Below are positions 25,831 to 42,601 of a stretch of DNA of 64,000 bases, in pieces. The stretch is from Vibrio atlanticus. GTDB lineage: Bacteria > Pseudomonadota > Gammaproteobacteria > Enterobacterales > Vibrionaceae. Made by a program: the position numbers and the translations under genes. The stretch is taken from positions 434,001 to 498,000 of the forward strand of contig NZ_AP025461.1 in the NCBI RefSeq assembly GCF_024347315.1. The letters run 5' to 3'. The notes beneath the pieces are model-generated. The model ran no database searches, was not told the origin of the DNA, and worked only from the letters and a program-made list of their open reading frames with translations. The number at the start of each line of letters is the position of its first letter. Position 1 is the first letter of the stretch.

Positions 25831-26212
25831 AATCAGTCTTTTCGTGTAAATGGGGGATACCTACGGCAAAGGCTGCAAGTATCGATAATTCGATTGTTTG
25901 TACCATAAGGCATTTTAACCATAAAAAGCGAATGGAAAAACAGTAAACCAGTGGAATGTAATCGGGAGCGGTTAACCTCAGAAAAGGGATGAGGTAATTG
26001 AGATCGTGCTAGCACGTTTTTGGACAAAACCAAGTTAGGAGAGACACCAAACTTGGCTGTTTCGAATGAATAATTCTAAGTAAAAACCGTGAATGGAATG
26101 CCTTTTCACCACCTTCCACTTGATTTCAGAGTACTTATATAGAGGCATCAGGCATATTCAACAATCGGGATTAAGTACTGGCTACGCAACATTTAATCCT
26201 TATTTGTTAAGT
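25831..26212. other. Intergenic stretch with palindromes, no gene seen
   Basis: Contains the perfect 12-bp palindrome CGTGCTAGCACG (26005-26016) followed by T's, and a hairpin with arms CCAAGTT / AACTTGG (26030-26056). Between them lies TTTTTGGACAAAA, a string also present near 39185. No reading frame with a ribosome binding site. Confidence 0.45.
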
Positions 26213-26557
26213 TTATAACTTTGATCGCTTACCAGTGGCGTATTCGTAACAGTCTGCGTAAATATGTGCGGAAAACTCTTTAGATACGTTATCTAGTTCT
26301 TGATTGGCAGCCTTAAAACTTATCGCTTCTTTGATAAAGTTACCGTTTCTCAGTCCGTCAAGGTAATCTGGATTTTTGGTTACGTACAAATCGTTAAGTT
26401 TTTCTTCAGATGTACCCATTGAAAGATCTTTCATAATTTGTTTTGCAGTCTCAGCATAATTTTCGCAGTTTGCGATTTTTTCTTCAGTGCTGATTTTTCC
26501 AAATGCTTGAAACGAAAAACCAATTAGAAGTACTGCCAATACTTTATTCTTATACAT
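26213..26557 (-). CDS. Small secreted hypothetical protein
   Basis: 114 residues with a clear signal peptide (MYKNKVLAVLLIGFSFQAFG, likely cut before KIS). The mature protein is charged and helical with two cysteines (NCENYAE and DCYEYATG) that may form a disulfide in the periplasm. AGGTAAG precedes the ATG. No family is recognised. It is one of the row of minus-strand genes separated by attC-like repeats. Confidence 0.65.
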   Translation of the reverse strand: MYKNKVLAVLLIGFSFQAFGKISTEEKIANCENYAETAKQIMKDLSMGTSEEKLNDLYVTKNPDYLDGLRNGNFIKEAISFKAANQELDNVSKEFSAHIYADCYEYATGKRSKL

Positions 26558-26599
26558 TCTTACCTCAAGTATTTAATTCAACATGGATTCAAAAACTTA

Positions 26600-26697
26600 G
26601 CTGATTTAAGTGAGCAACGCTACCACCGAACCTAATCCTTTGCTCCGTAAACACATAACCCAACGCTGGATGAAAAATGCCATGCGTTGGGAACCTG
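26600..26697 (-). repeat. Diverged attC-like repeat, copy 1
   Basis: Follows the stop of the YbjQ-domain gene. On the minus strand it opens with CCCAACGCATGGCATTTTTC and closes with GGTAGCGTTGCTCACTTAAA, the order expected of a Vibrio attC (R''/L'' ... L'/R'), though the outer core sites are degraded. CCCAACGC and GCGTTGGG can also pair directly with one bulged base. It shares about 70% of its bases with copy 2 at 28280. Confidence 0.45.
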
Positions 26698-26699
26698 TC

Positions 26700-27242
26700 T
26701 CAAACGCTTGTTTGGCGTTTTTCCACAACAACCGCAGTGCCTATAGCAGTAACCATAAACATTGACTTTCCACCACCCGAAACCTCATCTACGTCGATAG
26801 AAACACCAACGATAGCATTGCAGCTTTTACTTGCAGCTTGCTTTCGTAGACCAAGGAGGGCATTGGACTTGATTTGATCAAGTTTATTGTTATACGTACC
26901 TGATTGTCCTCCCACAATGTCACGAACGCCAGCGAGAATATCACGTAGGAAGTTCGTACCCGCAACAACAGTCGTTGTGATTACACCATGGTTTTCAATA
27001 ATTTCGAGGTCACTAGATATAGAGTTAGTTGATGAGGTCTTAACAAACTCAAAGTTGTCTTTACTCTTTAATTGGGACTCCCAAGTTGCAATAGCCTCTT
27101 CCGCATTCGCAGCTTCACAACTATCACTGAGAATCGTGAAGCCTTGCTCCATAAACGAGCCAATTTCTTCAGATGCTGTTGCTGACATTACGTCTACAGG
27201 AACAGTTACACCAGATTTACCAAAAACAATATATTTATTCAT
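26700..27242 (-). CDS. YbjQ/UPF0145-domain protein with extra N-terminal module
   Basis: 180 residues. The C-terminal 105 residues follow YbjQ (GVITTTVVAGTNFLRDILAG; RDIVGGQSGTY; CNAIVGVSIDVDEVS; MVTAIGTAVVVE), a pentamer-forming family with no proven function, sometimes called heavy-metal-binding. The first 75 residues (MNKYIVFGKSGVTVPVDV...EQGFTILSDSCEAANAEEA) are not part of YbjQ and resemble the N-terminus of the next gene upstream (27335-27748). No signal peptide is seen. Cassette-like setting. Confidence 0.75.
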   Translation of the reverse strand: MNKYIVFGKSGVTVPVDVMSATASEEIGSFMEQGFTILSDSCEAANAEEAIATWESQLKSKDNFEFVKTSSTNSISSDLEIIENHGVITTTVVAGTNFLRDILAGVRDIVGGQSGTYNNKLDQIKSNALLGLRKQAASKSCNAIVGVSIDVDEVSGGGKSMFMVTAIGTAVVVEKRQTSV

Positions 27243-27334
27243 CTATACGTACCTATTTTACGCTTTAGCGCATACCCTAGACACTACACCGATTAGAAAA
27301 GTATGTTGAAACCTTGATCGTTTTTATGGCGCTT

Positions 27335-27748
27335 TTAACTGATTTTATTAGCTATATAAATCAGTGTTTTGCTAATGCTATGAATAAGCAATGTAACCAA
27401 TAAACTCGCTCCTGCACCTACAAAATAGAGCACTGCGAATTCGCGAGTTCTGTATGATTCAGCAGATTCAAAGCCCATGATAATTAAGATTAAACAGCCA
27501 ATAATCGACAGTATAGTGAATATCGTTGAGCATACGCTCAAGTAACCTGCTGGGTTTTTTAGCTCTCCAACGACCTCCCCATTAGTTGCTTTATACTCTT
27601 TAGAATACTTTTTTTGTGCCTCAATTCTGTCAGCAGCTTCTATTTCACAAACGAACTTATATCCCTTATTAATAAGGCTATCTACAGTAGCTCTCTCACG
27701 TTCAAACTGTGTAGTGCCACCCAACTTTAAAACAGTATATTTACTCAT
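27335..27748 (-). CDS. Two-helix membrane protein sharing the N-terminal module
   Basis: 137 residues. The N-terminal 60 (MSKYTVLKLGGTT ... INKGYKFVCEIEAADRIEA) align with the N-terminus of the YbjQ-domain neighbour: KY-V at residues 3-6, a G/F-Y turn near 28-31, and an EA-x-x-EA pattern near 38-45. The rest is two transmembrane helices (about 70-92 and 103-125). No known family. The layout suggests a shared soluble module placed on different outputs. Confidence 0.6.
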   Translation of the reverse strand: MSKYTVLKLGGTTQFERERATVDSLINKGYKFVCEIEAADRIEAQKKYSKEYKATNGEVVGELKNPAGYLSVCSTIFTILSIIGCLILIIMGFESAESYRTREFAVLYFVGAGASLLVTLLIHSISKTLIYIANKIS

Positions 27749-27783
27749 TTTGTTACACCATTAATTTCTGTGTGTTTTTCATA

Positions 27784-27836
27784 CAAAGCCACCGTATTCA
27801 CTGAAGCCGATCGAACCAAAAATGCCAAAGGTTAAC
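27784..27836 (-). repeat. Diverged attC-like repeat, copy 3 (partial)
   Basis: On the minus strand it reads TAACCTTTGGCATTTTTGGT and then ACGGTGGCTTTG. This is a short relic of the same sequence class as copies 1 and 2, lying between two minus-strand genes exactly where a cassette boundary would be. Confidence 0.3.
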
Positions 27837-27856
27837 TGTCACTCTTGAGGAGTTTG

Positions 27857-28261
27857 TTACATTTCGGACTCATTCAGCTTCTTTTCAATCCATGCCTTAG
27901 AGTATCCCTTAAGCAACTCAAGACTAAACTTCAGCGATTCCCCAGCAGTCTTACTCTTGAACTCTTCCCAAATAGCAATACGATTGACCGCTTCCCAATA
28001 TTGACTAGCAAGCTCAGACATTCTCCAATTGCTCACACTCCAAGCTGGATGCGTGGAATCGTACATTTCATATGGGTTGTTTGCCCGATTGGAAACTATC
28101 CACCTTTCATCTGATAAACGATTCAAATGAAACTTTAATTCCTCAATTGGGTACTTCTTAACTTCCTCTTCCTGAACAAGTTCTTGAATTGATAACTCTG
28201 CTTTATCTGAGCTGACAAAAGCTGAAATAATGCATTTCAAACAATCATGATTAACTACCAT
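27857..28261 (-). CDS. DUF2513-like hypothetical protein
   Basis: 134 residues, cytoplasmic. An N-terminal winged-helix-like half (ELKFHLNRLSDERWIVSNRAN near 41-60) is followed by a C-terminal pattern (MSELASQYWEAVNRIAIWEEF ... SLELLKGYSKAWIEKKL, in parts) resembling the DUF2513 family often found on phages and islands. GGAGG lies immediately before the ATG, so it is likely translated well. Function unknown; the assignment is by general pattern only. Confidence 0.55.
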   Translation of the reverse strand: MVVNHDCLKCIISAFVSSDKAELSIQELVQEEEVKKYPIEELKFHLNRLSDERWIVSNRANNPYEMYDSTHPAWSVSNWRMSELASQYWEAVNRIAIWEEFKSKTAGESLKFSLELLKGYSKAWIEKKLNESEM

Positions 28262-28279
28262 TTAACCTCCGAGAAATAT

Positions 28280-28378
28280 CAACACCGCATTAAGGTGACC
28301 AACGCTACCACCTAACCTAAACATTGCGCCGCAAACACGAACCCCTACCTTAAACTGAAAATGCCAAGAGTTGGAAAT
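28280..28378 (-). repeat. Diverged attC-like repeat, copy 2
   Basis: Follows the stop of the J-domain gene. On the minus strand it begins TTCCAACTCTTGGCATTTTC and ends TAGCGTTGGTCACCTTAATG followed by CGGTGTTGAT, close to a Vibrio attC right half (GCGTTGGTCACCTTAATGCG then GCGTTA). The left core site is degraded, so it is probably no longer a good recombination site. Confidence 0.5.
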
Positions 28379-28383
28379 CGCTA

Positions 28384-28929
28384 TTAAATGCTTTCTGATG
28401 CCACTTCGTTCTTCAACTTCTCATATGAGTCGTTAATCCTTTGCATCATAGCTTTGCTTCCACCTTTATCTGGGTGGTGGATGGACGCTAGGCTTTTGTA
28501 ACGCTTTCTAAGATCTTGACTACTGGGTAAAAATTCATATCCTAAGATATCTCGCTCCGTTAATGAGCAATCAGATTCAAATAGTTGGCTGCTCAAATTG
28601 AAATTTTCTTGAGTCAGAAGATCGATCTTTCTTTCGGCTTCACTAAGTAATGACTTCAGTTCATTTATTCGGTGGTTGGCTTTGCGGATAGTCTCATTAG
28701 CTTTGTCTAATAATGAACCTTCACTTTCTTTGCTTTCTCGCTTGGCGTCTGCCTCTAAGTATCCGAGCTTAGTTAATACATATGTAGCCCTTTCCCTTTC
28801 AGTGTCATTGTAATAATCAGTGTGAAGACGGCTTAACATTAACTTAGCTGTTTTTACTGACAGCTCTTCGCTTCCTTCAAACAAGACTGCTCTCTGCTCT
28901 GAATGAGCAGATGAAAAAATATCGAACAT
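28384..28929 (-). CDS. J-domain protein (C-terminal DnaJ domain)
   Basis: About 181 residues from the ATG at 28929. An N-terminal helical part (about 1-70) and a coiled coil (about 75-125, ETIRKANHRINELKSLLSEA) precede a C-terminal J domain with the invariant HPD in SIHHPDKGGSK and helix IV NDSYEKLKNEV. It should stimulate an Hsp70 partner. There is no Gly/Phe or zinc region, so it is a type III J protein. A GTG start at 28995 would add a hydrophobic N-terminus; the true start is uncertain. No dnaK gene is near. Confidence 0.75.
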   Translation of the reverse strand: MFDIFSSAHSEQRAVLFEGSEELSVKTAKLMLSRLHTDYYNDTERERATYVLTKLGYLEADAKRESKESEGSLLDKANETIRKANHRINELKSLLSEAERKIDLLTQENFNLSSQLFESDCSLTERDILGYEFLPSSQDLRKRYKSLASIHHPDKGGSKAMMQRINDSYEKLKNEVASESI

Positions 28930-29223
28930 AACAAAGCAACCAACATAAAAAACATCGAGAAATAATAGCAAGTAAGTTGTCGAAGATATACTCACAGTAG
29001 CATAACTCTTCCTATACGGCTTTTAGCCGTTTTTTATCGTCATTCAATTCGCAATCAATACCTTAGATAAAGGTAAGGGAGAGTAAAAGGCAAAATGGCG
29101 CATAATTTTGAAAGCCTAACTCTTTAGATTTCGTCGGATAAATTAGAGTATTGCGAAAATCACGTATTCAAATCTTAGTAACGAGCTGTGCTGACAAGTT
29201 TTGGGGCAGATCTGAGCTAACTG

Positions 29224-29382
29224 GCACTTTTTGAGAAAAGTGCCACGAGTAAAGCTTCAGGTCCATGAAGACTCTGGACAATTATTTGCCAGTGATTTTG
29301 CTAAATTAGCAAACCATCAATAACTAAAGGTATGGCAAATTTACTTGTGAAGAGCTAATGCGATGAGTAGCATCGCATTAGC
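29224..29382. repeat. Double-hairpin non-coding element, left copy
   Basis: Starts with a perfect hairpin of arms GGCACTTTT / AAAAGTGCC (29223-29244). Next is a core (29276-29333) that aligns without gaps to 39188-39245 at about 69% identity, including TTGCCAGTGA, TTAGC and AATAACT. After TGAAGAGC it ends with a perfect 12-bp stem GCTAATGCGATG / CATCGCATTAGC (29354-29382). No gene lies in 28996-29582; the core is repeated in the same orientation at the other end of the hydrolase-siderophore block. Confidence 0.5.
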
Positions 29383-29582
29383 AAAAGTATTTGTTTAGGT
29401 GCGCATTAAGAGCCTTCATGGTAAACCGACCACCTACGCACAACGGGGGGATGGAAAATGTTATCAACAGCTGTTGAGTTCACGGTCTGAAACTAAAATC
29501 TAAGCCTGCGACCCTGTAAATTAACTCTTCGACTTAACCTAAAAGTACAGATTCCTCACTCATAACGCCGCCATTTGCGACC

Positions 29583-30452
29583 TTATAAATACTTATCGAA
29601 CCAATTTAGTTCTTGCTTGACTACAGATTCAAAGAACTTACCACTGTACACCTGATAGTGGGTTGCACCTCGCTCAATATGTAACTGTTTAGGTTCATTA
29701 GCATGCTCGAATAACTTTTTCGACTCACTAGCTGGATTCACTCCGTCTTCACCGGCTGCCACTACTAGCAGGGGTTTATTTAGTAACGCTAGTGCGTTAA
29801 TTGGTTTGTGATTCATAGTTTCCCACACAGTTAAGAATGGGATTTTGATATTTAAAGCTGGGAAGTCATCTTTAAAATTATTAAAAAACTCTACAGATTG
29901 AGGGTCACCTAATACTTTAGCGATTGGCACCATCATCTCTTTGCCAGTCTTCGCCTTCTTGTCGCGCATGCGCTCTAACGTGCTAACAAATTTCCCTTTC
30001 TCTTCTACGTTCATTTCTCCAGTAATAACGGACTCACCATCAGCAAAAGTTAACTGAGCTACTACACATTGCACCTTCGGGTTGAGGCTTGCTGCAATAA
30101 TTGAGTTCGCGCCACCAAAAGAAGTCCCCCAAAGCCCAATACGGCTCGCATCAATATTTTGCTGAGTAGATACCCATTCGATTGCAGCATTGATATCTTC
30201 AATTTGTAACGCTGGTACTAAACGACCAGGTTCCCCTTCGCTTTCTCCAAACCCACGGTAATCAAAGGTAAGCGCAGCGTATCCTTGCTCTGCAAATCGT
30301 TCAGCATAAGCAGGAAGTAGTAACTCTTTCACACCACAAAAACCGTGACACAAAATGATGATTGGATAGTGTGTTTGTGGTTTATTTTTTGGCAAGTAAA
30401 GATGAGCGGAAATAGCCCCCCCTTGAGAAGGGAATTTAACATGTTGATACAT
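29583..30452 (-). CDS. Alpha/beta hydrolase (dienelactone hydrolase / S9-like)
   Basis: 289 residues, cytoplasmic. Features: PIIILCHGFCGVKEL near 27, YAALTFDYRGFGESEG near 54, the nucleophile elbow GLWGTSFGG near 108, the acid in AAGEDGVNPA near 230, and the catalytic His in ERGATHYQVYSG near 272. Related proteins hydrolyse xenobiotic or lipid esters. AAAGAGAAC precedes the ATG. It is the first gene inside the direct-repeat-flanked segment and is divergent from the siderophore operon; no direct link to it is evident. Confidence 0.82.
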   Translation of the reverse strand: MYQHVKFPSQGGAISAHLYLPKNKPQTHYPIIILCHGFCGVKELLLPAYAERFAEQGYAALTFDYRGFGESEGEPGRLVPALQIEDINAAIEWVSTQQNIDASRIGLWGTSFGGANSIIAASLNPKVQCVVAQLTFADGESVITGEMNVEEKGKFVSTLERMRDKKAKTGKEMMVPIAKVLGDPQSVEFFNNFKDDFPALNIKIPFLTVWETMNHKPINALALLNKPLLVVAAGEDGVNPASESKKLFEHANEPKQLHIERGATHYQVYSGKFFESVVKQELNWFDKYL

Positions 30453-31271
30453 TTATATGTTCTCTTTGTAGTGGCGTTTATATGTTATCTAAAGATTCTT
30501 TATACACTAATTACTTTAACGATCTGTTCTGACCAATATATTAAGCTCTAGTTCATATCGTAAACATTAAGACACCTAAAACCTTGGGGAAAATCAGGAG
30601 TGGTAAATTCGCGAGTTTACTATCAAAAACTGCCCTCAGAGCACCTCAAAGAATCTTAGCTAAGATTTGGGGCACTTTTTAAGGTGATTCCACTTCCTTA
30701 GCGCTTGGAAAGTTTGCGATGCTTTCAGAGCGATTTAAAGGTTAAAAATCATCTAGTTACTTCGAACCAAGAGTTGCACTCTGATACTCATTTACGTTCT
30801 TTATGAGTTTTGTTTTTCAGATTAGTTCTACAAGTATGGAAAGTCGCCTAATTTAGAATCCAGCATTGACGGTGCAGGTCAAAGGCATTGTGCTCTTGGG
30901 TACCTAGACCGATTAGCTTTTAGAAACAAAATGTCGCTTAGCAAATCGTCCAGCCTGAATGAAGCAGATCATGCTCCCCATAGACACGGCTCTGTAACTC
31001 ATTCGACTGCCACCGTGCATTGAGCCCTATATAGTATTTACTGAAAACGTCATCTATAGATGATAAACCCGAAAATGTATTACCCTTTAAATACAACAGC
31101 TAAATCTTGAGTTATATAACGGCTTCTTGCCCTTAAACTCAGCTCTTCCTTTTAACTTTATTTCTTGCACTGCTCACGTACAAAGTTTCCCGATATTCGC
31201 TTTCTAATTCCCAATATTGCTATTGTTAAGCTAACGATTAGATGAGAATGAGTCCTATTAAGGAGTCGTCT
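30453..31271. other. Long promoter-side intergenic region, no intact gene seen
   Basis: About 820 bp between divergent genes. No open frame with ribosome binding site or known family. Holds a CATCTATAGATG palindrome near 31050. No Fur-type palindrome comparable to that at 37964 was found in front of the ABC transporter genes. Confidence 0.45.
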
Positions 31272-32942
31272 ATGTATCTATCTGACAAGATGAGCGTCAC
31301 TCAAGCCCTCATTGCACTATTAAAAACGGAAAAAAAGCGTATCACTTATACCAGTGTTAGCGCCGTGTTGTGCGTGTTCGCAGAACTCGCCACTTGGATT
31401 TGCTTATACGTCGCATTGAGCAATTATCTGAACACCCAAAGTCTGAATTTCTACTTAGCTCTTATGACCATCGCAGTCTGTGTGCACTATTTTTTCTATG
31501 CAATTTCGGTATGGCAGGCGCATCTTGCTGCTTATCAAATTATTCAGACCATTAGGCAGAAGCTTGTTCGTGCTCTGTCTGAAATGCCGACCGTTAAACT
31601 GATGCAATACCATCGTGGAGATTTAGAAAAGCGACTCAATGATGATTGTCAGAGCCTTGAGCCTCTTATTGCTCATCATACTACCGATATTATTACTGGA
31701 ACTTTACTTCCGTTTGTTTTGCTTGGTTTTATGGTTAGCATCGACTGGCAGCTAGGCTTAATCGCATTAAGTCCTCTCCCCCTCGCTGTGATTGCCCAAA
31801 CAGTCATGATGCGTGGCTTTTCAGATAGACAAAAAAAGTACAATCAAGTCGTTGCGAATATGCATAAGGCGCAACTGGAATTTTTACGCAGCATCGGCGT
31901 GATGAAACTTTTCGGCGTTGATGCTGACTCTTACCGCCAGTTAAGCCATAACATGACTAAGCACCACAAGCTGGTTAACGCTTATACCAATCAAATGGTT
32001 GGAGCATGGGTCACCTTTACCACCTTAGCTCAAGCGTCTTTGGTTCTTGTTATTCCATTCGCCATCGTAAAATTGACCCAAGGTTCATTAAGTCCAGTCG
32101 AGCTCGCAATGATCGTGATTCTTTGTGCCGGCATCCTTAAACCATGGTTGGATCTAACACAGATATTTGGGCAAGTGCAGCAGTCCTTCTCTTCTTTAGA
32201 GCGAATACTACCTCTGTTCTCCGCAACGTCGGATCAATATTTCAAATCCGTTGCAACGCCTTATGTCGAGCTTTGTTGTGAAAATTTAGCGGTCAAACGT
32301 GGCTCACTCGACATCGTCAGTGGGCTGAACCTTCAGTTATCTCATGGCGAATGCATCGTAATTCAAGGAGCGTCAGGCTCAGGGAAAAGTAGTGTATTGG
32401 CAACACTCTATGGAGAACTAGCAACATATGAAGGCGATTGGTTTATTAACCCAAAAACCGTGTCTTCGATGTCCGATAGAGAGCGAAGCCAATTTATCTC
32501 AGTTGTAGACCAACAGCCGGTTTTCTTCAGCGCATCAATACGTGAAAACTTGGTCTTAGGAGATCGATTGATACACGACTCCGTGATTCTCAAGCTCCTC
32601 GATATGCTTGGACTTTCTGCACTTATCGAACAACTTCCTAATGGTTTGTATTGCAGTATGGATGAAACCGAACGCAATTTTAGTGGAGGGGAACTACAAC
32701 GGTTAGCCATCGCTCGTGCCATGCTGGTATGCCCTGTCATTCTGGTTTTAGACGAAGCGACTTCCCATCTAGATAAAGTAACGGAAAATCGTGTTCTAGA
32801 AGCAATACGTAAATATGCACCGCAGCAAATCCAATTGGTCATCAGTCATGGTCCAGAAGCACTAACCATCGCTAACCGAGCGTTTTCATTATCACACGGT
32901 CAACTTAAAGAAATTGACCTTGAGGAGGCCGTCTGTGCGTAA
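31272..32942 (+). CDS. YbtP-like siderophore ABC transporter, permease-ATPase half
   Basis: About 556 residues. Six membrane helices span about 25-310 in an exporter-type fold, followed by an ATPase with Walker A GASGSGKSS near 373, signature FSGGELQR near 473 and Walker B VILVLDEATSHLD near 495. Together with the next gene it matches the YbtP/YbtQ (IrtAB-like) class: exporter-fold half-transporters that import ferric siderophores through the inner membrane. The start at 31272 follows AAGGAG at good spacing. It overlaps the next gene by 8 bp. The context with FyuA-, YbtX- and YbtA-like genes is what supports uptake rather than export. Confidence 0.85.
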   Translation: MYLSDKMSVTQALIALLKTEKKRITYTSVSAVLCVFAELATWICLYVALSNYLNTQSLNFYLALMTIAVCVHYFFYAISVWQAHLAAYQIIQTIRQKLVRALSEMPTVKLMQYHRGDLEKRLNDDCQSLEPLIAHHTTDIITGTLLPFVLLGFMVSIDWQLGLIALSPLPLAVIAQTVMMRGFSDRQKKYNQVVANMHKAQLEFLRSIGVMKLFGVDADSYRQLSHNMTKHHKLVNAYTNQMVGAWVTFTTLAQASLVLVIPFAIVKLTQGSLSPVELAMIVILCAGILKPWLDLTQIFGQVQQSFSSLERILPLFSATSDQYFKSVATPYVELCCENLAVKRGSLDIVSGLNLQLSHGECIVIQGASGSGKSSVLATLYGELATYEGDWFINPKTVSSMSDRERSQFISVVDQQPVFFSASIRENLVLGDRLIHDSVILKLLDMLGLSALIEQLPNGLYCSMDETERNFSGGELQRLAIARAMLVCPVILVLDEATSHLDKVTENRVLEAIRKYAPQQIQLVISHGPEALTIANRAFSLSHGQLKEIDLEEAVCA

Positions 32943-34623
32943 CACGCTCAAGCTACTCGATCACGCTGATATCAATCCAAAAACGTTTTTGGTTGGTATT
33001 GCAGGTAAGGTACTCAGTGAGATCCTGCCATTAATTTGTTGGCTACTGGTATTCGGAGCCCTTACCCAAACATTGTTACTTCCTCTTAAAGCCCTATTCG
33101 CAATTTCACTTATCACGGTTGTCGTTCAGTGGCGGTTAGGGCAATCCACCAAACAGAGCTTCTTAGGCGCTTATGACATTACCCACCAACTGAGAAAAGT
33201 ACTACTACATGACATTCGCAGCCAACCGTTTTCCAAGATAGTAGGTCAAGGTCTGGGAGAGCGCATTAAGCTAATCACTCGTGACTTAAAAGCATTCGAA
33301 GACATTTTTAGCCACTTAATTGCTGACTTGGTCTCGGCTCTAGTGGTTCCGTTCGCGATGCTTTGTGTAATGCTATTTTGCTCACCTTACCTTGCTTCAC
33401 TTATGCTGATTGTTATGGTGAATGCGAGCCTATTATTGTGGAAATTCGAAGATGATTTTTCCAAAAAAGCACAGCGCCATGTCGATAAAAACGCTTCTTG
33501 CACCAACAAGTTGCTCGAATACATTGCTTGTTTACCCACGCTAAAACGCTTTGGTCGTAGTGAAGTATTAGCGACGCCACTTAGTCAAGAATTAGCTGAC
33601 TTGCGCAAAACAGGGTTAGGGGTTGAATGGGCTGGAGGAATAGGCGTTATTTTAGCAAGCTTGCTGCTTGAGCTTTCTATTCCAATGGTCGCAGGTCTTG
33701 GTGCTTACCTAAATAGTATTGGCAACCTTACTATCGGGGAGTGGTTAGTTTCGATCATTTCTGCGGTTGCTTGTATCCGACCATTTGTGCGAATGGCCAT
33801 TTTCTCTACGTTGTTGAGATACATGGCAAAATCTGCAGATCGCTTGTATTTCTTGAGTCAAGAGCCACAACAACCTGTGCATGGTGTTCAAGCGCATCAT
33901 CACGATATCGAATTCAAAGCGGTTGAGTTAACTCTGGATGGCAACACCATTCTTAAAGACATCAATTTGCAGGTTCCATATGGTCAACATATTGCGCTTG
34001 TTGGTACTAGTGGAGCAGGAAAAACCACGCTGTTGGACTTGCTCGCGGCATTCCATATTCCAACTCACGGGACAGTAAAAATTGGAGGAAGTACGGTAGA
34101 AGCTACTGGGACAATGTACTGGTATCAGCAGATCTCCTACGTAACCCAAAATGTGCAATTGTTCGCAGGGACGTTAAAAGACAACTTGCTCATCGCCAAA
34201 ACAGACGCAAGCCTTCAAGAATTGGAGACAGCAATCACAACCGCAGGACTTGATGAGCTGCTCGCCCGCTTGCCACAAGGGCTAAACACCGAAATAAATG
34301 AGAATGGCAAGGATTTATCGGGTGGAGAACGTCAACGCTTGTCCCTCGCAAGAGCGTTACTCCATGATGCGCCAATTGTGTTGCTCGATGAGTTTACATC
34401 TGCTCTCGACCACCCTAAGCAACAGGAAATACTGCAAAGCATTACCGAGAGTTTTGCATCTAAAACCATGATCACGATAGCGCATCGTTTGGACACCATT
34501 GCTGATGCCGATTGCATCTATTTGATGAGCCAAGGTCGCATTGATGATTTTGGCTCGCACGAGCAATTAATCACAACCTCTTCGCACTACCAGTCTCTGT
34601 GGGAAGCTCAACATAATAATTAA
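32935..34623 (+). CDS. YbtQ-like siderophore ABC transporter, permease-ATPase half
   Basis: About 562 residues, partner of the preceding half-transporter. Membrane domain about 20-310, then Walker A GTSGAGKTT near 362, signature LSGGERQR near 462 and Walker B PIVLLDEFTSALD near 483. The start is the GTG at 32935, preceded by GAGGAGG, and it overlaps the previous gene by 8 bp, giving tight translational coupling for a heterodimer. An N-terminally longer reading frame has no ribosome binding site. Confidence 0.86.
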   Translation: MRNTLKLLDHADINPKTFLVGIAGKVLSEILPLICWLLVFGALTQTLLLPLKALFAISLITVVVQWRLGQSTKQSFLGAYDITHQLRKVLLHDIRSQPFSKIVGQGLGERIKLITRDLKAFEDIFSHLIADLVSALVVPFAMLCVMLFCSPYLASLMLIVMVNASLLLWKFEDDFSKKAQRHVDKNASCTNKLLEYIACLPTLKRFGRSEVLATPLSQELADLRKTGLGVEWAGGIGVILASLLLELSIPMVAGLGAYLNSIGNLTIGEWLVSIISAVACIRPFVRMAIFSTLLRYMAKSADRLYFLSQEPQQPVHGVQAHHHDIEFKAVELTLDGNTILKDINLQVPYGQHIALVGTSGAGKTTLLDLLAAFHIPTHGTVKIGGSTVEATGTMYWYQQISYVTQNVQLFAGTLKDNLLIAKTDASLQELETAITTAGLDELLARLPQGLNTEINENGKDLSGGERQRLSLARALLHDAPIVLLDEFTSALDHPKQQEILQSITESFASKTMITIAHRLDTIADADCIYLMSQGRIDDFGSHEQLITTSSHYQSLWEAQHNN

Positions 34624-34674
34624 AACGCCAGCGCTGTGAGTAGTGCTAACTTATTCAGATTCAAGGAAAACAGT

Positions 34675-36648
34675 ATGTACAATATATCTTCGCCGCGCAC
34701 CGTTATTGCTAGCGCTATTCTGACTATTATGGGCTCTTCATATTCTTATGCTGAAGAAATTCTGCCAGTAATGGAAGTGGTTGTTGTTGAGGCGACTAAA
34801 TTCGATACTCCCTTAACACAAGTGAATAACTCTGTTGTAGTCAAAACAGGAGAGGAGCTCGAAAAAGCAGGTATCTATCAAGTAAAAGATCTGGAGATGG
34901 TGTTTCCTGGGTTACTCATACAAACTCGCGGGAATCGAACTTACGCCAACACCACCGTGCGTGGGATTAGTTCACCAGACTATTACTCTCCTGCCGTAAG
35001 TATTTATGTGGATGGTATCCTTCAGGATAATGCTTTTGTTACTCAGCCGCTTATTAACGTAGAAAAAGTTGAATTGCTGCGCGGCCCGCAAGGGACACTT
35101 TATGGTGGTAACGCGCAAGGCGGTGTAATTAACATCGTAACTCGTCGTGAAGTTGATTCCACAGAAGTTAAGACTTCAGCTTTATATTCTAATTTAAGCC
35201 AGCAAATTGATACTGTCGTATCTACCCGTTTATCAGACTCTCTTTCTGCGGATATTGCCGCCAGATACGTCTACGATGAAGGTGATATTAAGCATGCCGC
35301 TAGTGAAAAAAAAGACGCAAACGATGCGGATGAAAAATCGGTAAAAGTTCGACTTCATTACTTACCAAACGACTCCAAACTTAGCGCAACCCTATCTATT
35401 TCGACCGATAAACTTGATAGTCATGAAGAATGGTACCTCACTGAACGTGAACATGATTCTGGCGTAAAAGATGCGCCTATTCCTAAACTGAAGCGAGACG
35501 TAAATACTTTTGCTTTAAATCTTGGTTACGATTTAGGTTCATCACAAATCACGAGTATCACAGCTTATCAAACACGCGAAATAGATCGGAAATATGTATA
35601 TGGCAACTACCAAGAAGATCAAAATAAGTTCAGCCAAGAATTGCGGTTAAATCAACAATACAATGATCGTTTTAGCTATGTACTCGGTGGCTACTTGGAA
35701 TCTCGCCGTTTAGACGTTTCGGCAAACAGTGCACGAAACAAGTTGGATTATGACACTTACGCGTTGTTTGGGCAGGCAAACTACCAATTCGTACCACAGT
35801 GGGACTTAACGCTTGGAGCTCGAGCTTCATACCTAAAAGTAAATTCTAATTTTAACGGAAACCCAGCATGGGGGATTAACCCTTTTAACAAAGAGCAGAC
35901 AGAATCGACTGTCTCGCCAAAAGCCGCAATTGGTTGGCAAGCGAATGAGCAAACTCGAATTTATGCATCGGTAACAAGTGGTTACCGCCCAGGGGGATAC
36001 AACGTCGTCCCGTTAAGTAATGCAGATGCAAATGGTTATGATGCTGAAAATTCACTTAATGGTGAACTGGGGTGGCGCACCAGTTTTGCGAATCAAAAAG
36101 TCGATTTTAGTGGTGCATTGTACTGGATCAAAACGGAAGATATTCAGCTATATACTGGTACACCTGGCAATCAGACTCTCAAAAATATGGGGGAGGCTGT
36201 AAGCAAAGGTATTGAAACCGAGCTGGCATTTTACCTAACCGACGATCTCACGATAACCGCAGCGGGGACTTATGGACGTTCAACATTTGAATCAAACAAT
36301 AGTACATTTGAAGGCAATCGACTGCCATATGCACCGGACACGACAGCAACATTTGGCTTCAACTATTACTTGCCAGTAACGGGAGTCCAAGGGGATATTT
36401 CGATCAATTCTCAAGCTCGCTATAATTCCAAGATTCACTTTAACGAAGCCAATTCACTATCGCAAAGCGCGTACACTTTGGTCGATTTATCAATTAACTA
36501 TGACTATAACCAAGACCTGTCTATTTCGCTCTTTAGCAACAATATCACAGACAAAGAATACACCACCTACGCGTTCTCTTACGGACAAACCTACAGTAAT
36601 TACGGTACTGGTAGAGAGATCGGTGTGAAAGCGAAATATGAGTGGTAG
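34675..36648 (+). CDS. FyuA-like TonB-dependent siderophore receptor
   Basis: Outer-membrane receptor of 657 residues. Signal peptide cut near SYA/EEI; TonB box in MEVVVVEATKFD; plug domain with LYVDG-like IYVDGILQD and VELLRGPQGTLYGGNAQGG; 22-strand barrel ending in KAKYEW. The strings GYRPGGYNVVP and TEDIQLYTGTPG-type segments parallel the yersiniabactin receptor FyuA, making it the closest recognised relative. The ligand is therefore probably yersiniabactin, piscibactin or a similar phenolate-thiazoline siderophore. Fifty-one bases separate it from the ABC genes; the next gene overlaps its stop. Confidence 0.85.
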   Translation: MYNISSPRTVIASAILTIMGSSYSYAEEILPVMEVVVVEATKFDTPLTQVNNSVVVKTGEELEKAGIYQVKDLEMVFPGLLIQTRGNRTYANTTVRGISSPDYYSPAVSIYVDGILQDNAFVTQPLINVEKVELLRGPQGTLYGGNAQGGVINIVTRREVDSTEVKTSALYSNLSQQIDTVVSTRLSDSLSADIAARYVYDEGDIKHAASEKKDANDADEKSVKVRLHYLPNDSKLSATLSISTDKLDSHEEWYLTEREHDSGVKDAPIPKLKRDVNTFALNLGYDLGSSQITSITAYQTREIDRKYVYGNYQEDQNKFSQELRLNQQYNDRFSYVLGGYLESRRLDVSANSARNKLDYDTYALFGQANYQFVPQWDLTLGARASYLKVNSNFNGNPAWGINPFNKEQTESTVSPKAAIGWQANEQTRIYASVTSGYRPGGYNVVPLSNADANGYDAENSLNGELGWRTSFANQKVDFSGALYWIKTEDIQLYTGTPGNQTLKNMGEAVSKGIETELAFYLTDDLTITAAGTYGRSTFESNNSTFEGNRLPYAPDTTATFGFNYYLPVTGVQGDISINSQARYNSKIHFNEANSLSQSAYTLVDLSINYDYNQDLSISLFSNNITDKEYTTYAFSYGQTYSNYGTGREIGVKAKYEW

Positions 36649-37889
36649 TGAAGCACATGGTTAGTACTCAAAGAATCAAACTCAAACCGTTGCTCGCCGT
36701 GTTGGCGAGCGTTTACACCATTCAAAGCCTGGTGAGTATGTTTACGCTACAAGGTTTACCCGCTGTCATGAAATATGAGGGATTAAATACCTCCCAAATA
36801 GGCTTGTTCTACCTTGCGATGCTTCCTTGGGTTGCTAAATTTTTGTGGTCACCTTGGATTGAACGACAACGAAAAAAGGAGGGGAGCTTAAAAAATCACG
36901 CCGTTATTATCTTTGGTTCTCAACTGGTCTTGATTGCCATACTCGCCGCCCTTTGCATTATGGGGACTATAGAGAGTCAAATGACGCTCTTTGTTGGTGT
37001 ATTTGTTATCAGCCTCTTTTCTAGCTTCGCCGATATCGCTACCGATGGTCTCGCGATTGATCAGTTGGAAGCAAAGAAAAGGTATTTAGGTAACGTAATG
37101 CAAGTTGGGGGATCGTATCTTGGTGCGGTTTTTGGTGGAGGGCTATTTATCTATGTTACTGCGCTGTTCGATTGGCAAACAGCACTATTTGGTCTGGCTT
37201 TGCTGACTTTATTATTCAGCATACCAACGCTTTCTTTGTTTTTTAATAGCCATAATCAACAGTACGTAACAGCAATACAGCCTTCTCTAAAAGCCTCATT
37301 TTCTAATCCTAAAGTTAGGCTTGGATTGATATTTATTACCTTGTCACAACTTGGTACTCGAGGGGGGCTATCAATGATGATGCCCTTCTTGGTTGATAGT
37401 GGTATACAGCTAGAAAACTTGGGGCTTTTGGTTATCGGCGGCGGTGTTATTACTGGTTTGATTGGTGTTGTTTTAGGTGGGTGGCTGATCAAAAAAAGTG
37501 ATGCACTCAAAGTCCTACTGCTGATGACCAGTTTTGAGGTCATAGCTTTTAGCTTTTATCTAGCATACGATCTAAATATCACTGGATTGGGGGGGGTAAT
37601 CGCAGGCGTTTACGTAGTAAATGGTATCATTACTTCAGCGAAATTTGTCGCGCTTTACACTTTGATGATGGATTTTGCCGCAGGTAATCAGTCAGGTGTG
37701 AACTTCTCACTTTTTCAATCTATGGATATGTTTATAGCAATAGTGATGGCAATCGCGTGTGGCGTGTTAATTGACTCCTTGGGATATTCGGCACACTTTG
37801 AATTGATGCTCACCTTTAGCCTACTCGCAATATGCTTAATCCCTGTATTAAAACCAACCGGGAAGACAAACCTTGCTTCGCAAACCTAA
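36648..37889 (+). CDS. YbtX-like major facilitator transporter
   Basis: About 413 residues with 12 predicted membrane helices. Belongs to the AmpG/RhtX-like MFS group to which YbtX of yersiniabactin loci belongs; RhtX-type members import siderophores. The GTG at 36648 shares a base with the receptor's stop (TAGTG), implying coupling; an ATG at 36657 is an alternative. Together with the ABC pair it gives two candidate inner-membrane routes. The role of YbtX is unsettled even in Yersinia. Confidence 0.78.
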   Translation: MKHMVSTQRIKLKPLLAVLASVYTIQSLVSMFTLQGLPAVMKYEGLNTSQIGLFYLAMLPWVAKFLWSPWIERQRKKEGSLKNHAVIIFGSQLVLIAILAALCIMGTIESQMTLFVGVFVISLFSSFADIATDGLAIDQLEAKKRYLGNVMQVGGSYLGAVFGGGLFIYVTALFDWQTALFGLALLTLLFSIPTLSLFFNSHNQQYVTAIQPSLKASFSNPKVRLGLIFITLSQLGTRGGLSMMMPFLVDSGIQLENLGLLVIGGGVITGLIGVVLGGWLIKKSDALKVLLLMTSFEVIAFSFYLAYDLNITGLGGVIAGVYVVNGIITSAKFVALYTLMMDFAAGNQSGVNFSLFQSMDMFIAIVMAIACGVLIDSLGYSAHFELMLTFSLLAICLIPVLKPTGKTNLASQT

Positions 37890-37963
37890 TCAAAGCTTTA
37901 TCGTCAAAGGAGTTCCAATTTTGAAAAGGGCTCTTTTCTCTGGCTGATCTACTTAGTTTAAAA

Positions 37964-38000
37964 ATTAATATAAATGATACCTATTATCATTTATATTAAT
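37964..38000. promoter_or_regulatory. Large perfect palindrome: Fur-box / AraC operator
   Basis: Two perfect 16-bp arms (right arm TATCATTTATATTAAT) are separated by the 5-bp spacer CCTAT. The centre, TGATACCTATTATCA, matches the Fur consensus TGATAATNATTATCA at most positions. It lies 43 bp before the YbtA-like start and about 75 bp after the YbtX-like stop. Fur repression is the simplest reading; the outer arms may serve the AraC-type regulator. Confidence 0.7.
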
Positions 38001-38042
38001 TGCTCTGGGGAGATGCTCACAAGAGACGACGAGGCTGTAAGA

Positions 38043-38909
38043 ATGAGTAATATCGTGAAGAGCTTAAGCTTAGTTAGCGGCTTAGAGGGAACACTTGATG
38101 TTGTAGCTCTCGATGATGGTGTGAATGCCTACATAGTTAACTGTAAAGCGACAATGGACATTCAATTCAACGACCCAGCAGATGCTGGGTTCTATATAAG
38201 CTTTGCTGGCACCAACTATGCCTACAGTCCCAAATATCCAGATTACCCAGCGGCATCTTTTGCTTCTCGATGCATTGCATCGCTTTTGCTTGATCCTGAA
38301 CCAGTCAACCCAATTGAATTAGCAGAAGGAGGTCGAATTGAGAACATTCGAATCCACTTCCCGTTACACCATAGCTTGACTAAAAACTTACTTCCCCAAA
38401 GTGGAAAATCATCATTCAAACCTTTCGATCTTTATGAGACGGGTTGGCAGATGCCACTAACAGGGGAGGTCCTCAATGTTGCTAAATCAGTTTGGAGCAA
38501 TAATTTTCAAGGTATTGCCCGGACGGTGTGGTTAAGAGGTAAAATATTAGAGTTATTAGCACTACTCATGGTGCATAAAGAACCTAAATCTCTAGCAGAG
38601 CAAGCCTGTGACCTTATCGCAACGCAACCTCATATCGATTGGAATATACCATGCTTATCTAAGGAGCTTGCAACTAATGAGTGTTATTTAAAACAATCAT
38701 TTAGAGAACAGTTCAACATGGGTGTTGCAAGTTGGATACAGGCTTATCGCATCAATCTTGCTAAAGAGCGTTTAACCAATTCTAATGAATCAATTACCAA
38801 TATCGCCCTAGATTTGGGCTATCAAAGTGGCAGTTATTTTTCGAAGGTCTTCAAACAGCACTCCGGGCTTACGCCAAAAGCATTTCGAAGCCGTCTGTTA
38901 GGAGAGTAA
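38043..38909 (+). CDS. YbtA-like AraC-family regulator
   Basis: About 288 residues, C-terminal double helix-turn-helix of AraC type (ELATNECYLKQSFREQF near 225 and SITNIALDLGYQSGSYFSKVF near 255). In yersiniabactin loci YbtA activates receptor and synthesis genes when the iron-siderophore is present. The start MSNIVKS at 38043 is chosen because GAGG precedes it; an upstream ATG would lie inside the palindrome at 37964. Unlike in Yersinia it follows the uptake genes on the same strand. Confidence 0.82.
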   Translation: MSNIVKSLSLVSGLEGTLDVVALDDGVNAYIVNCKATMDIQFNDPADAGFYISFAGTNYAYSPKYPDYPAASFASRCIASLLLDPEPVNPIELAEGGRIENIRIHFPLHHSLTKNLLPQSGKSSFKPFDLYETGWQMPLTGEVLNVAKSVWSNNFQGIARTVWLRGKILELLALLMVHKEPKSLAEQACDLIATQPHIDWNIPCLSKELATNECYLKQSFREQFNMGVASWIQAYRINLAKERLTNSNESITNIALDLGYQSGSYFSKVFKQHSGLTPKAFRSRLLGE

Positions 38910-39402
38910 CCAGTGCTTAAAAAAAACGGTTGCTGAAGCATTAATAGAGCAGTTTCAAATAACAATCATGGTTTCTTGAAGCTTCAGCACTTTACTCAAA
39001 TAACCACTCTATAGAGGATCTAAACTGTAGAGTGGCATCGTTCTGTAATTCGGACTTTCTGGATGTCTCGACACTACAACCAACCGTTGAACTGACCATT
39101 ATTCAAACGCAGGTTTCGATGATGATAAATCATATGGTAAATATTCACACTTGAGATAAACCGTGTAACTATCTGGAACTCATTTTTGGACAAAAGCTTG
39201 CCAGTGAGTATCCTACTTTAGCTATCCTTGAATAACTTTTCGTATATCAAAATGAAGAGCGGCACCATCGAGGGAGGTGCCGAAAATGAAAGCTTTTGGA
39301 CAATAACAAGAATCGTAACCTAACAATACTCAAAATATTTTATGCAAGCTAGAGTGAATTATATTCCGTTCGTTCATCCAACTTTGTTGCAGGGCCGATA
39401 AA
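38910..39402. other. Intergenic region at the right end of the siderophore block
   Basis: No gene recognised. It contains the second copy of the repeat element described at 39188 and a further TTTTGGACAATAA string near 39296. Confidence 0.5.
39188..39282. repeat. Non-coding element with hairpin, right copy
   Basis: GGACAA ... TTGCCAGTGA ... TTAGC ... AATAACT ... GTAT (39188-39245) aligns without gaps to 29276-29333. Both copies then reach TGAAGAGC followed by a hairpin, but the hairpin sequence differs: here CGGCACC / GGTGCCG (39260-39282). Same orientation as the left copy, 9.9 kb apart. Confidence 0.5.
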
Positions 39403-40269
39403 TTATACTTCCAGCGGAATAGTAGTATTAGTCATTTTGGCTATTAGCCTCCCGACTCGCTCGCGCATCTCGCGTCGATCCACAATCATGTCGATTGCGC
39501 CATGCTCTAAAAGGAACTCACTCCGCTGAAAACCTTCGGGCAGTTTCTCTCGAACGGTTTGCTCTATAACACGACGCCCAGCAAAACCGATAATTGCCTT
39601 CGGTTCGCCGATGTTAATATCTCCCAGCATGGCTAGACTCGCTGATACCCCCCCCAATGTCTGATCAGTTAATACAGATATGTAAGGGAGGCCTTCATTG
39701 GATAAACGATTTAACGCAGCGCTGGTTTTTGACATTTGCATTAACGACATAAGAGATTCTTGCATACGAGCACCACCACTGGCAGAAAAGCAAACTAATC
39801 CACAATTAGCTTCAATAGCGGCCTCAACGGCACGAACAAAACGAGCGCCGACAACAGAACCCATTGAGCCAGCCATAAAAGAAAACTCGAAAGCACAGGC
39901 AACAACTGGTAAGCCCAGTAGCTTTCCTTTCATCACAACCAAGGCATCTTTTTCTCCTGTACTTTTCTGGGCTATAGCAAGGCGTTCCTTGTAGCGTCTC
40001 AGATCCTTAAAGTTCAGTAAATCTTGTGGCTCATGTTCACTGGCAATCTCAAATCGTTCTCCTTTATCCAGAAAGCTGTCTAAGCGATGGCGTGCCGACA
40101 TTCTCAAATGATGATCGCATTTTGGACATACCTCCAGGTTTTCCTCAAGAGCCATGCTGTAAAGGATCTGGTCGCACGAGGGACATTTAGTCCATACCCC
40201 ATCTGGAATCGACGCTTTACGTGTACTTATTATATTCTTTTTATCTAACAGCTTTTCTAACCAACTCAT
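39403..40269 (-). CDS. accD: Acetyl-CoA carboxylase carboxyltransferase beta subunit, stand-alone AccD variant
   Basis: Beta half of the carboxyltransferase that makes malonyl-CoA for fatty acids. 288 residues. Zinc ribbon C29/C32/C48/C51, CoA/biotin-site region [16 protein letters not shown] near 134, and [15 protein letters not shown] near 161. The loop that reads LTDPTMGG in E. coli is LTDQTLGG here, so the position of E. coli Met203 is Leu (residue 205 here). The C-terminal tail of about 15-20 residues found in housekeeping AccD is absent. The usual truA-accD-folC neighbourhood is missing; instead there is a divergent LysR gene and an insertion sequence. Likely a second accD acquired as a resistant copy. 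Confidence 0.9.
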
Positions 40270-40377
40270 GGGATACCTTTACCAGATAACTTTAGTAAGG
40301 GGTATTATATAAGCCAACTTCTGGTAATAAAGCGTGTAATATGGGCTTTATAATCCAACATTATGGGATGAAGGGAA

Positions 40378-41283
40378 ATGTTTGATAAGATTGATCAGCA
40401 GTGGCTAAAAAGTTTTCATTGTGTCTATGAAAACAACAGCTTTAAACGCGCGGCGGAATTTCTAAGCTTACCGACGTCAAATGTCAGTCGCCATATCGCT
40501 TTACTGGAAGAACGACTGGATACACGACTATTTGACAGGACTACACGCCGAATAGCTCCGACAGATGCAGGGGAACATCTTTATTTACGAACACAGCCAC
40601 TGCTGGACAAACTTAATGACGCACTTGAGGAAGTGACTCAGCATTCTTATGAAGTCATGGGGCAACTTAAAGTTTTAATGCCAGACTCACCTGCTTTGGC
40701 TCAAGCATTGGTTTCTTTTTGTATCCAGCATCCATCAATTTCATTATGTTGTGATACGAGCATTAGCCCTAAAGAGGATTTACTTGATGGGTTTGACGTT
40801 ATTTTGAGCTTTCACAGAGGAAAGCTTGAAGACAATAATTGGGTAGCTAAGGAGATTAAACGCTGGCAAAGTGCTGTTGTAGCATCCCCCCAACTTCTAC
40901 AGGTCTCTCCCAGACCTTTTCAGATTACCGATTTAAAACACGTTCCGTGCATCAATAGCTTTACCGTACTAAATGGAACTCCCTGGGTTTTCAAAAACGC
41001 TAAAGGTGAGCCAATCACCCAAAAGGTACAGTCCTCATTTAAGGTCAATAGCGGGCATCTTGCCAAATCTGGCGCATTAGCTGGTTTGGGATTCGCGATA
41101 CTACCAATCGAATCCTGTCGCAATGAGATAAATGCAGGCTCTTTGGAAGTCGTAGAACTAGAGTACGAACCTGAAGATCTAGTTTTGTATGTCTTTTATG
41201 CTTCCAGAAAACACTTGGCAAAAAAGATCCCGATATTTATTGAACACTTACAGCACCAAGCAAATTTAGATAAAAGGACATAA
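40378..41283 (+). CDS. LysR-family regulator divergent from the extra accD
   Basis: 301 residues. N-terminal winged helix (SFHCVYENNSFKRAAEFLSLP near 14, then SNVSRHIALLEERL) and a type 2 substrate-binding effector domain. The 108-bp divergent spacer to accD strongly suggests it controls that gene, which would make the extra carboxyltransferase inducible. The effector is unknown; a carboxylase inhibitor or a fatty-acid signal would be plausible inference. Confidence 0.85.
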   Translation: MFDKIDQQWLKSFHCVYENNSFKRAAEFLSLPTSNVSRHIALLEERLDTRLFDRTTRRIAPTDAGEHLYLRTQPLLDKLNDALEEVTQHSYEVMGQLKVLMPDSPALAQALVSFCIQHPSISLCCDTSISPKEDLLDGFDVILSFHRGKLEDNNWVAKEIKRWQSAVVASPQLLQVSPRPFQITDLKHVPCINSFTVLNGTPWVFKNAKGEPITQKVQSSFKVNSGHLAKSGALAGLGFAILPIESCRNEINAGSLEVVELEYEPEDLVLYVFYASRKHLAKKIPIFIEHLQHQANLDKRT

Positions 41284-41569
41284 GCTGAAGAACAATTTTG
41301 ATGAAAGGCTTTGTCTGAACCACTTCTTTAGAGTCGGTGATTAGCTAAGCGAATTATTATGCAAAAGAGAGGCTACTTGGTGTACACAGTATGGTGCAAG
41401 AAACTGGGAGATTCCGCGCATCGATGTTGCGCGGTCTGCCATTAGTAAAAGTCGGGCTATTTTCTGGCGAGATTTACTACCGTTTTGTTGCGCAAACTTG
41501 ATGTATGGAATCCACTCCCTCTCTGCCAATCTACACTTAGCAGAGTGCAGTTATAACGAGGGTTCCAAT

Positions 41570-42601
41570 ATGTTGACTAAAAATGTTATCGCGATCGACC
41601 TAGCAAAAAATGTTCTGCAAGCCTGCCATATCAGTATTTACGGTGAGATGCTGTCCAATAAACCTTTAAGTCGACAGAAAATGAAAGAGTTTCTTGCCAA
41701 GGCTAAGCCTTCCATTGTCGCCATGGAAGGTTGTTGCGGCTGCCACTACTGGGGGCAATTAGCTGAAAAGTTTGGACACGAAGTGCGGATTATCAACCCG
41801 AAGAAAGTGAAAGGCTACCTAGAAGGACATAAAACTGATCATAATGATGCCCTTGCTATCGCTAATGCCGCTATCCAAATTGGTATCAAGTACAGCCGTC
41901 CAAAGTCATTAGAACAACAATCTATGCATTCATTAGAAACCAGCCGTAGGTTCTTATCTCGTAGTGTGGTTTCCTTAGGGCTTCACATTAGAGGGACGAT
42001 TTTGGGCTACGGGATAGCAAACCCTAGAGGTGAAAAAGGTTTAAAAGCGTCGGTTCAAACAGTACTTGATGGAGAGACCTCAATACCAGCAAATGTTGTA
42101 TCCGTTCTGTCCATGTTGTGGGAGCAATATAAAGAACTGAAAGCAAAACTCATCGCGTTCGAAAAAGAGAAAAATGCGTTAACCCGTCAGATAGAACCAT
42201 GCCAACGATTAATGGAAATTGAAGGTGTTGGTGAAACAACAGCTGCGATGCTTTATACCACTCTGGGTGATGGAAAGCAGTTCAAGAATGGAAGGCAAGC
42301 TTCAGCGTTTGTTGGTCTTACGCCCAAACAACACAGTTCAGGTGGTAAGGTCTTTATGGTTGGGATCGATAAATGCGGTGGTGTGAAAGAGCTACGCTCC
42401 CTTCTCTATCTTGGTGCAATGTCTTACGTTGGACGACTACCAGAAAAACCGAAGACTCAAAAGGATGCTTGGTTGAGGAGTATCATAGATCGTATCGGAT
42501 TCAAGAAGGCCTGCATTGCACTGGCGAACAAAGTGGTACGGACTGCATGGGCAATGTTACGGTATGAATCTGAATATAAACCTGTTTTACTCACCGATTA
42601 A
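41570..42601 (+). CDS. IS110/IS1111-family transposase
   Basis: 343 residues. The N-terminal RuvC-like DEDD domain begins AIDLAKNVLQACHI, with Glu in VAMEGCCG near 56 and Asp pair in GHKTDHNDALAIA near 99-102. The C-terminal transposase_20 domain carries MEIEGVGETTAAML and the serine-bearing ASAFVGLTPKQHSSGGK near 245-262. Intact, so the element may be active. The ATG at 41570 follows GAGGG. Confidence 0.93.
   Translation: MLTKNVIAIDLAKNVLQACHISIYGEMLSNKPLSRQKMKEFLAKAKPSIVAMEGCCGCHYWGQLAEKFGHEVRIINPKKVKGYLEGHKTDHNDALAIANAAIQIGIKYSRPKSLEQQSMHSLETSRRFLSRSVVSLGLHIRGTILGYGIANPRGEKGLKASVQTVLDGETSIPANVVSVLSMLWEQYKELKAKLIAFEKEKNALTRQIEPCQRLMEIEGVGETTAAMLYTTLGDGKQFKNGRQASAFVGLTPKQHSSGGKVFMVGIDKCGGVKELRSLLYLGAMSYVGRLPEKPKTQKDAWLRSIIDRIGFKKACIALANKVVRTAWAMLRYESEYKPVLLTD

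Follow-up and report, generated by a model that had tools for sequence, protein, structure and literature searches.

The window, a 64,000-nucleotide stretch of Vibrio atlanticus DNA (contig NZ_AP025461.1, positions 434,001 to 498,000), carries a second gene for the carboxyltransferase beta subunit AccD, accD2, together with a divergent lysR gene. The lysR-accD2 pair is probably an inducible, mobile resistant-target module directed against andrimid-type carboxyltransferase inhibitors and found mostly without a producer cluster. A portable resistance module is considered probable because the same pair also sits in vibrio andrimid clusters and on a plasmid. The module consists of the following features:

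39403..40269, minus strand: accD2, an intact open reading frame (ORF) of 288 amino acids with the loop LTDQTLGG, assigned by TIGR00515 and Pfam matches and by alignment to E. coli AccD
40270..40377: intergenic region that separates the divergent accD2 and lysR genes; some of its blocks are conserved among modules
40352..40370, plus strand: operator-like palindrome AATCCAACATTATGGGATG, which begins 26 bases before the lysR start
40378..41283, plus strand: lysR, the conserved partner of accD2, divergent from it

The lysR gene starts 108 bases from accD2 on the opposite strand and was overlooked in the original prediction, which described accD2 as a self-standing immunity gene carried without the antibiotic cluster. 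The second copy, the kinship with vibrio AdmT, the failure of a cluster probe to match in the genome and the free-standing position agree with that description, except that the unit is the lysR-accD2 pair and not a lone gene.

The AccD2 protein scores 440.5 bits against the NCBIfam accD model TIGR00515 (cut-off 317.45) and matches both Pfam Carboxyl_trans and Zn_ribbon_ACC. These matches and the ORF check uphold the prediction of an intact AccD-like protein, located on the minus strand. A PDB alignment of AccD2 with E. coli AccD pairs Gln203 with Pro201 and Leu205 with Met203, as had been read from the sequence. A PF01039 search of the V. atlanticus genome returned three matches: the window accD2 (contig 2) plus two on contig 1, namely the housekeeping accD (C1:1035371, 308 amino acids, loop MTDPTMGG) and a 319-amino acid frame (C1:2629420) that is presumed to be accA. 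The housekeeping accD on contig 1 rejects the possibility that the window gene is the only accD in the genome, and the predicted second copy is present. AccD2 has 288 residues compared with 308 in the housekeeping AccD, and the two are 78% identical over 288 residues. Locus comparison also bore out that the usual accD neighbours (truA-dedA-accD-folC in the comparison order) are absent beside accD2.

The module also occurs within vibrio andrimid clusters. Vibrio sp. SWAT-3 is described as a known andrimid producer (PMC3559943), and one of its module copies (L103) adjoins ketosynthase, adenylation, major facilitator superfamily (MFS), phosphopantetheinyl transferase and thioesterase genes. The same arrangement is found on a plasmid of V. 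coralliilyticus OCN008, in which the ketosynthase protein is 99.4% identical, and for both SWAT-3 and V. coralliilyticus S2052 admT is described as having a LysR gene upstream of it (PMC5216899). Both vibrio andrimid clusters seen carry the lysR-accD2 module, the accD2 copy being admT. SWAT-3 has a second, orphan module (L104) on a different contig, with an AccD2 that is 75% identical to the SWAT-3 AdmT. In an AccD tree of 110 rows, all 63 intact AccD2 proteins fall on one side of a branch with a Shimodaira-Hasegawa-like approximate likelihood ratio test (SH-aLRT) support of 99, within the Vibrionaceae part of the tree. The clade includes the AdmT of SWAT-3 and of V. coralliilyticus, which cluster with four orphan AccD2 copies (support 99). 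The kinship with AdmT anticipated by the original prediction is present for the two vibrio AdmTs, which are the AdmTs of this tree, and the placement of AccD2 with vibrio AdmT and apart from housekeeping AccD is firm. The LysR tree (84 rows) likewise groups both andrimid-cluster LysRs with orphan LysRs, and a tree with the cluster LysRs outside the orphans is rejected by the approximately unbiased test (p-AU 0.0013), although this grouping was defined only once the tree had been inspected. Uptake of a pre-existing orphan module by the andrimid cluster is favoured by the LysR gene and left open by the AccD gene. Placing the Photobacterium and Pseudoalteromonas AccD2 outside the Vibrio copies gave a p-AU of 0.325, and on its own this test does not rule against vertical descent. 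Both the AccD and the LysR trees are 'quick' trees in which long rows were flagged.

Residue counts were made for the 63 intact AccD2 proteins and for 75 distinct housekeeping rows (38 from Vibrionaceae) drawn from the best 80 matches and a few others; E. coli numbering is used. Gln occupies position 201 in 61 AccD2 proteins and Pro in the other two, whereas all 75 housekeeping rows have Pro there; position 170 is Ser in 63/63 AccD2 proteins and Ala in 75/75 housekeeping rows. Position 162 is Cys in 49, Ser in 13 and Val in one AccD2, and Ser in every housekeeping row. At position 203 the AccD2 proteins feature Phe (42), Leu (13) or Tyr (8) and never Met, while the housekeeping rows have Met (65), Phe (6), Tyr (3) or Leu (1). 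The claim that Leu is not ordinary at this position in housekeeping AccD is thus borne out (one row of 75). Leu203 as a shared resistance mark did not stand, as residue 203 varies among Phe, Leu and Tyr within the AccD2 family, mostly together with Gln201. Leu203 was likewise rejected as a family mark, with Phe in 42/63 AccD2 proteins and in both vibrio AdmTs. Leu203 is one form of a wider loop change, because position 203 is Phe, Leu or Tyr across AccD2. The M203L change in E. coli AccD reportedly gives andrimid resistance (Liu et al. 2008), and the Met203 replacement in the window AccD2 is only suggestive of reduced andrimid inhibition. Of 329 Vibrionaceae genomes, 283 contain a DNA pattern designed for Pro201-Met203, although a miss need not equal a non-Met203 residue. 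A second AccD match is present in 1 of the 46 genomes without the pattern and in 70 of the 283 with it (Fisher p 1.5e-4, kinship ignored). This association fits a module that would be needed only where the housekeeping AccD is sensitive, and it lends that idea weak support because the 46 pattern-negative genomes represent few lineages; 26 of them belong to two genera, and G265 and G058 gave zero AccD matches at the threshold.

The spread of the module was determined in the same 329 genomes, one per species, which were searched separately with the AccD2 and the LysR protein. At E 1e-60, 71 genomes, that of V. atlanticus among them, gave a second AccD match; the second matches of G109, G189, G300 and G309 were counted by match alone, and in genomes with three AccD matches some may be fragments of a broken copy. 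LysR matches at E 1e-70 occur in 91 genomes (92 rows). Eighty of these rows were fetched, four others (V. atlanticus, two SWAT-3 loci and V. sonorensis) were compared with them, and the remaining eight, at 46-59% identity, lie outside the locus counts. A divergent accD2 adjoins lysR in 61 of the 80 fetched loci, which with the four others gives 65 loci in 64 genomes, broken copies counted. The gap between the genes is 101-182 bases across the 60 modules in which both are intact. The 19 fetched loci that lack accD2 comprise one at a contig end (L171), one with a broken lysR (L234) and 17 with an MFS gene in its place. In a comparison of the window with 11 other loci, accD2 and lysR occur together in all except that of V. 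pectenicida (L052), and other genes at the 11 loci are common to some loci only. Across the full locus set the flanking genes vary, judged by eye, save among close relatives. The V. pectenicida gene (L052/L256, genome G222) is a module-clade accD2 with no adjoining lysR.

The module also occurs outside Vibrio and on mobile DNA. The lysR-accD2 pair is present on a plasmid of Pseudoalteromonas donghaensis, a species of another family; the plasmid also has genes for TraV, TraC and a MOBH relaxase, and no andrimid gene is annotated within the 24.9 kb of it that were fetched. Its AccD2 is 89% identical to that of the window, while five Pseudoalteromonas housekeeping AccDs, none of them from P. donghaensis, are 73-75% identical to the V. 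atlanticus housekeeping AccD. Photobacterium alginatilyticum shows 89% identity for AccD2 and 84% for the housekeeping protein in the same comparison. In V. atlanticus the module lies in an approximately 18-kb region without counterpart in the stretches of five relatives that adjoin their amylase and pullulanase genes:

24815..42601: module-bearing region of approximately 18 kb, whose ORFs had no match in the compared stretches of the five relatives
41498..42601, plus strand: IS110-family transposase that adjoins lysR, in the flank outside the module

The genes that flank this region on both sides are present and close together in two of the five relatives (L263 and L264, from genomes G126 and G160), and only the amylase/pullulanase side was observed in the other three. 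Three of the five (G126, G160 and G311) carry the module on contig 1 instead, and the G126 AccD2 is 93% identical to that of the window. IS110-family-like transposases lie near two modules, that of the SWAT-3 andrimid cluster (L103 2311-3366) and that of the window (41498-42601), and are 43% identical to each other.

Pairwise ratios of nonsynonymous to synonymous substitution rates (dN/dS), calculated for pairs chosen among near neighbours, are 0.03-0.16 in 19/20 accD2 pairs, and the gene is under purifying selection. The zinc motif CxxC-15-CxxC is kept in 63/63 intact AccD2 proteins. These results and the conserved operator-like site make it very improbable that accD2 is a remnant, i.e., a selfish or decaying accD duplicate with no present function, an explanation that would account for the 6/62 copies that are short or broken and for the V. 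pectenicida gene that lacks an adjoining LysR.

Among the conserved blocks of the intergenic region is the motif AATCCAA-N5-TGGGATT, which in nine of the modules begins 21-34 bases ahead of lysR. In the V. atlanticus genome the sole exact match of TAATCCAANNNNNTGGGAT is the 19-mer at 40351-40369. With up to two mismatches allowed, the palindrome is present in 58/60 modules, compared with 0/1200 simple shuffles and 3/1200 random pieces of the window, in which the site itself lies. Shared descent inflates the module count because the modules that were counted are related and are also those from which the motif was derived. A genome-wide scan at the same tolerance gave 62 matches, compared with 27 for a reversed control. 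The palindrome also occurs in 10 of the 17 loci in which LysR relatives are divergent from an MFS gene and accD2 is absent (L193, L216, L220, L228, L230-L233, L235-L239 and L241-L244), some of these loci being near copies. The 17 MFS transporters form one family of approximately 410 amino acids. Among the ORFs of the locus set, two of them match, beyond their own family, only the MFS proteins of the two andrimid clusters (25-26% identity); in the reverse search, the andrimid-cluster MFS also matches three other ORFs. When the LysR tree is rooted, by choice, on two rows paired with MFS genes, accD2 pairing is nested within MFS pairing, and three MFS-paired rows lie inside the accD2-paired part. 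This pairing with one MFS family and its outer position suggest that the LysR may serve as a drug-response regulator.

A different role for the regulator has been considered, in which AccD2 is a metabolic isoform that tunes malonyl-CoA supply under some condition, with no antibiotic role, and the LysR is a sensor of acetyl-CoA or a different metabolite. A precedent is AccR of Shewanella, described as an acetyl-CoA-responsive LysR activator that serves one acetyl-CoA carboxylase gene (PMC11602165), and AccD2 retains both its AccD family score and purifying selection, as such an isoform would. The module LysR is, however, not close to AccR. It was rejected as an AccR orthologue, as the entry 9bce, which holds the AccR effector domain only, matches at E 3.5e-10 and ranks eighth of 16 entries; the seven that outscore it include the 207-residue AphB domains 5x0n and 5fhk at 1e-14. 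Patchy presence, short or broken copies, plasmid and island sites, residence in andrimid clusters and the MFS alternative all fit a dispensable defence better, and the metabolic explanation is considered unlikely.

For the resistance module, the proposed mechanism covers assembly with AccA, resistance, the LysR ligand and induction. AccD2 would be a working carboxyltransferase beta subunit that pairs with AccA in place of the housekeeping AccD. Its altered loop (Gln201 and a non-Met203 residue, with Ser170 and others) would weaken binding of andrimid/moiramide-type inhibitors, so that malonyl-CoA synthesis could continue. The LysR may sense an andrimid-like inhibitor, or the acetyl-CoA build-up that the inhibitor causes, and would switch on accD2 from an operator in the shared intergenic region. 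The module itself moves among replicons and species, and in both vibrio andrimid clusters seen a copy serves as admT. A broader reading is put forward tentatively: a LysR lineage of marine Vibrionaceae may run a swappable cassette, in which one regulator and operator type is paired either with an efflux pump, which is probably the older arrangement, or with a drug-insensitive AccD. The stand-alone cassette would have spread on islands and plasmids and been taken into vibrio andrimid clusters as admT, and because the stand-alone form became admT, resistance would have come before production in those clusters.

The accD2 of the window is not inside an andrimid biosynthetic cluster, as determined by a scan with six cluster proteins and a genome search with one of them, P0005. 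The six proteins gave zero matches in a 20-kb slice round accD2, and the single probe P0005 found no match in the V. atlanticus genome. Across 83 stretches, some of which end at contig ends, the six proteins are present at L103 only. P0005 at E 1e-20 matched two of the 329 genomes, SWAT-3 and, weakly (32%), G155, and it gave no matches in 392 enterobacterial genomes, taken from the family group that includes a Yersinia genome, in a search run without a positive control. ORFs at 9839-15741 of a G155 locus (L254) are like part of the SWAT-3 andrimid cluster: one matches P0005 at 32%, and the starts of others resemble the cluster's 734-amino acid synthase and reductase; they are possibly an andrimid-like cluster, and G155 also has an orphan module (L213). 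A related explanation keeps the resistance function and assigns the natural threat to another carboxyltransferase inhibitor, from so far unknown marine producers. This would suit the disparity between P0005 (1/329 genomes, or two with the weak match) and second AccD matches (71/329), as well as the co-occurrence in G155; butuanimides and thailandamides are likewise described as targeting AccA/AccD (PMC13151354). Since the module serves as admT in both vibrio andrimid clusters seen, this explanation is regarded as quite improbable.

Several points weigh against a resistance module directed at andrimid. Judged by one probe and one genome per species, producers seem scarce in relation to the frequency of the module, because P0005 matched SWAT-3 alone, plus G155 weakly. 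Phe, Tyr or Leu at 203 also occurs in 10/75 housekeeping rows, and Phe203 and Tyr203 are not known to give resistance. The AccD tree accommodates AdmT outside the orphans (p-AU 0.43), and its AdmTs are the two vibrio ones. Additionally, one close accD2 pair has a dN/dS of 0.35, and a further copy, besides the six of 62 that are short or broken, runs off its contig.

The closest known system is AdmT. For the Pantoea protein, a half-maximal inhibitory concentration of 500 nM compared with 12 nM and resistance conferred on E. coli are described (PMC6269866), and AdmT is described as carrying an AccD change (PMC13151354). Like AdmT, AccD2 is an AccD homologue additional to the housekeeping copy, and it shares with the vibrio AdmTs the clade, the loop type and the adjoining LysR. 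The window accD2 differs in that it has no adjoining andrimid cluster, with P0005 unmatched in the genome, and in having Leu203 where the vibrio AdmTs have Phe203. AccR of Shewanella oneidensis resembles the module LysR in being a LysR-type regulator devoted to a carboxylase gene; it is described as controlling the multi-domain carboxylase gene accS, whereas the module LysR pairs with a second accD (PMC11602165). Other resistant-target duplicates exist in bacteria, such as a second FabI, IleRS or MetRS, each an insensitive copy of an essential target. The proposed AccD2 function follows the same principle, and accD2 differs from these by its dedicated divergent LysR with MFS-pairing relatives. 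No description of a second vibrio accD, whether stand-alone or regulated, was found in the open-access literature, which is not proof of novelty because subscription papers were mostly outside the search. A resistant AccD is already known in AdmT; as far as the searches reach, what is new is a stand-alone, LysR-controlled, mobile AccD2 in approximately one fifth of the Vibrionaceae species sampled. If the proposed function is correct, that fraction (of 329 genomes, 64 with the module and 71 with a second AccD match) would keep regulated resistance to carboxyltransferase inhibitors, a drug-lead class, and nearly all carriers would do so without a detected andrimid-making gene. The module would then be a resistance reservoir that predates clinical use and a marker for locating producers of such antibiotics, and the question of whether resistance or production came first would become testable.

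Some further observations concern mobile records and the surroundings of the module. Phage records gave 18 matches, the best at 65% identity. Several plasmid matches look like chromosomal accD on large records; the one inspected, Klebsiella pneumoniae plasmid NZ_CP129740 (L251), has the chromosomal-type stretch pdxB-truA-dedA-accD-folC-cvpA-purF. Within the unmatched region of the window, a row of genes at positions 31242-38909, two of the ABC transporter type and one each for a TonB-dependent receptor, an MFS transporter and an AraC regulator, looks like a siderophore uptake set. At 42984-48737, the order of the alpha-amylase and pullulanase genes is reversed in the five relatives with orientation unchanged, and this difference is a local rearrangement.
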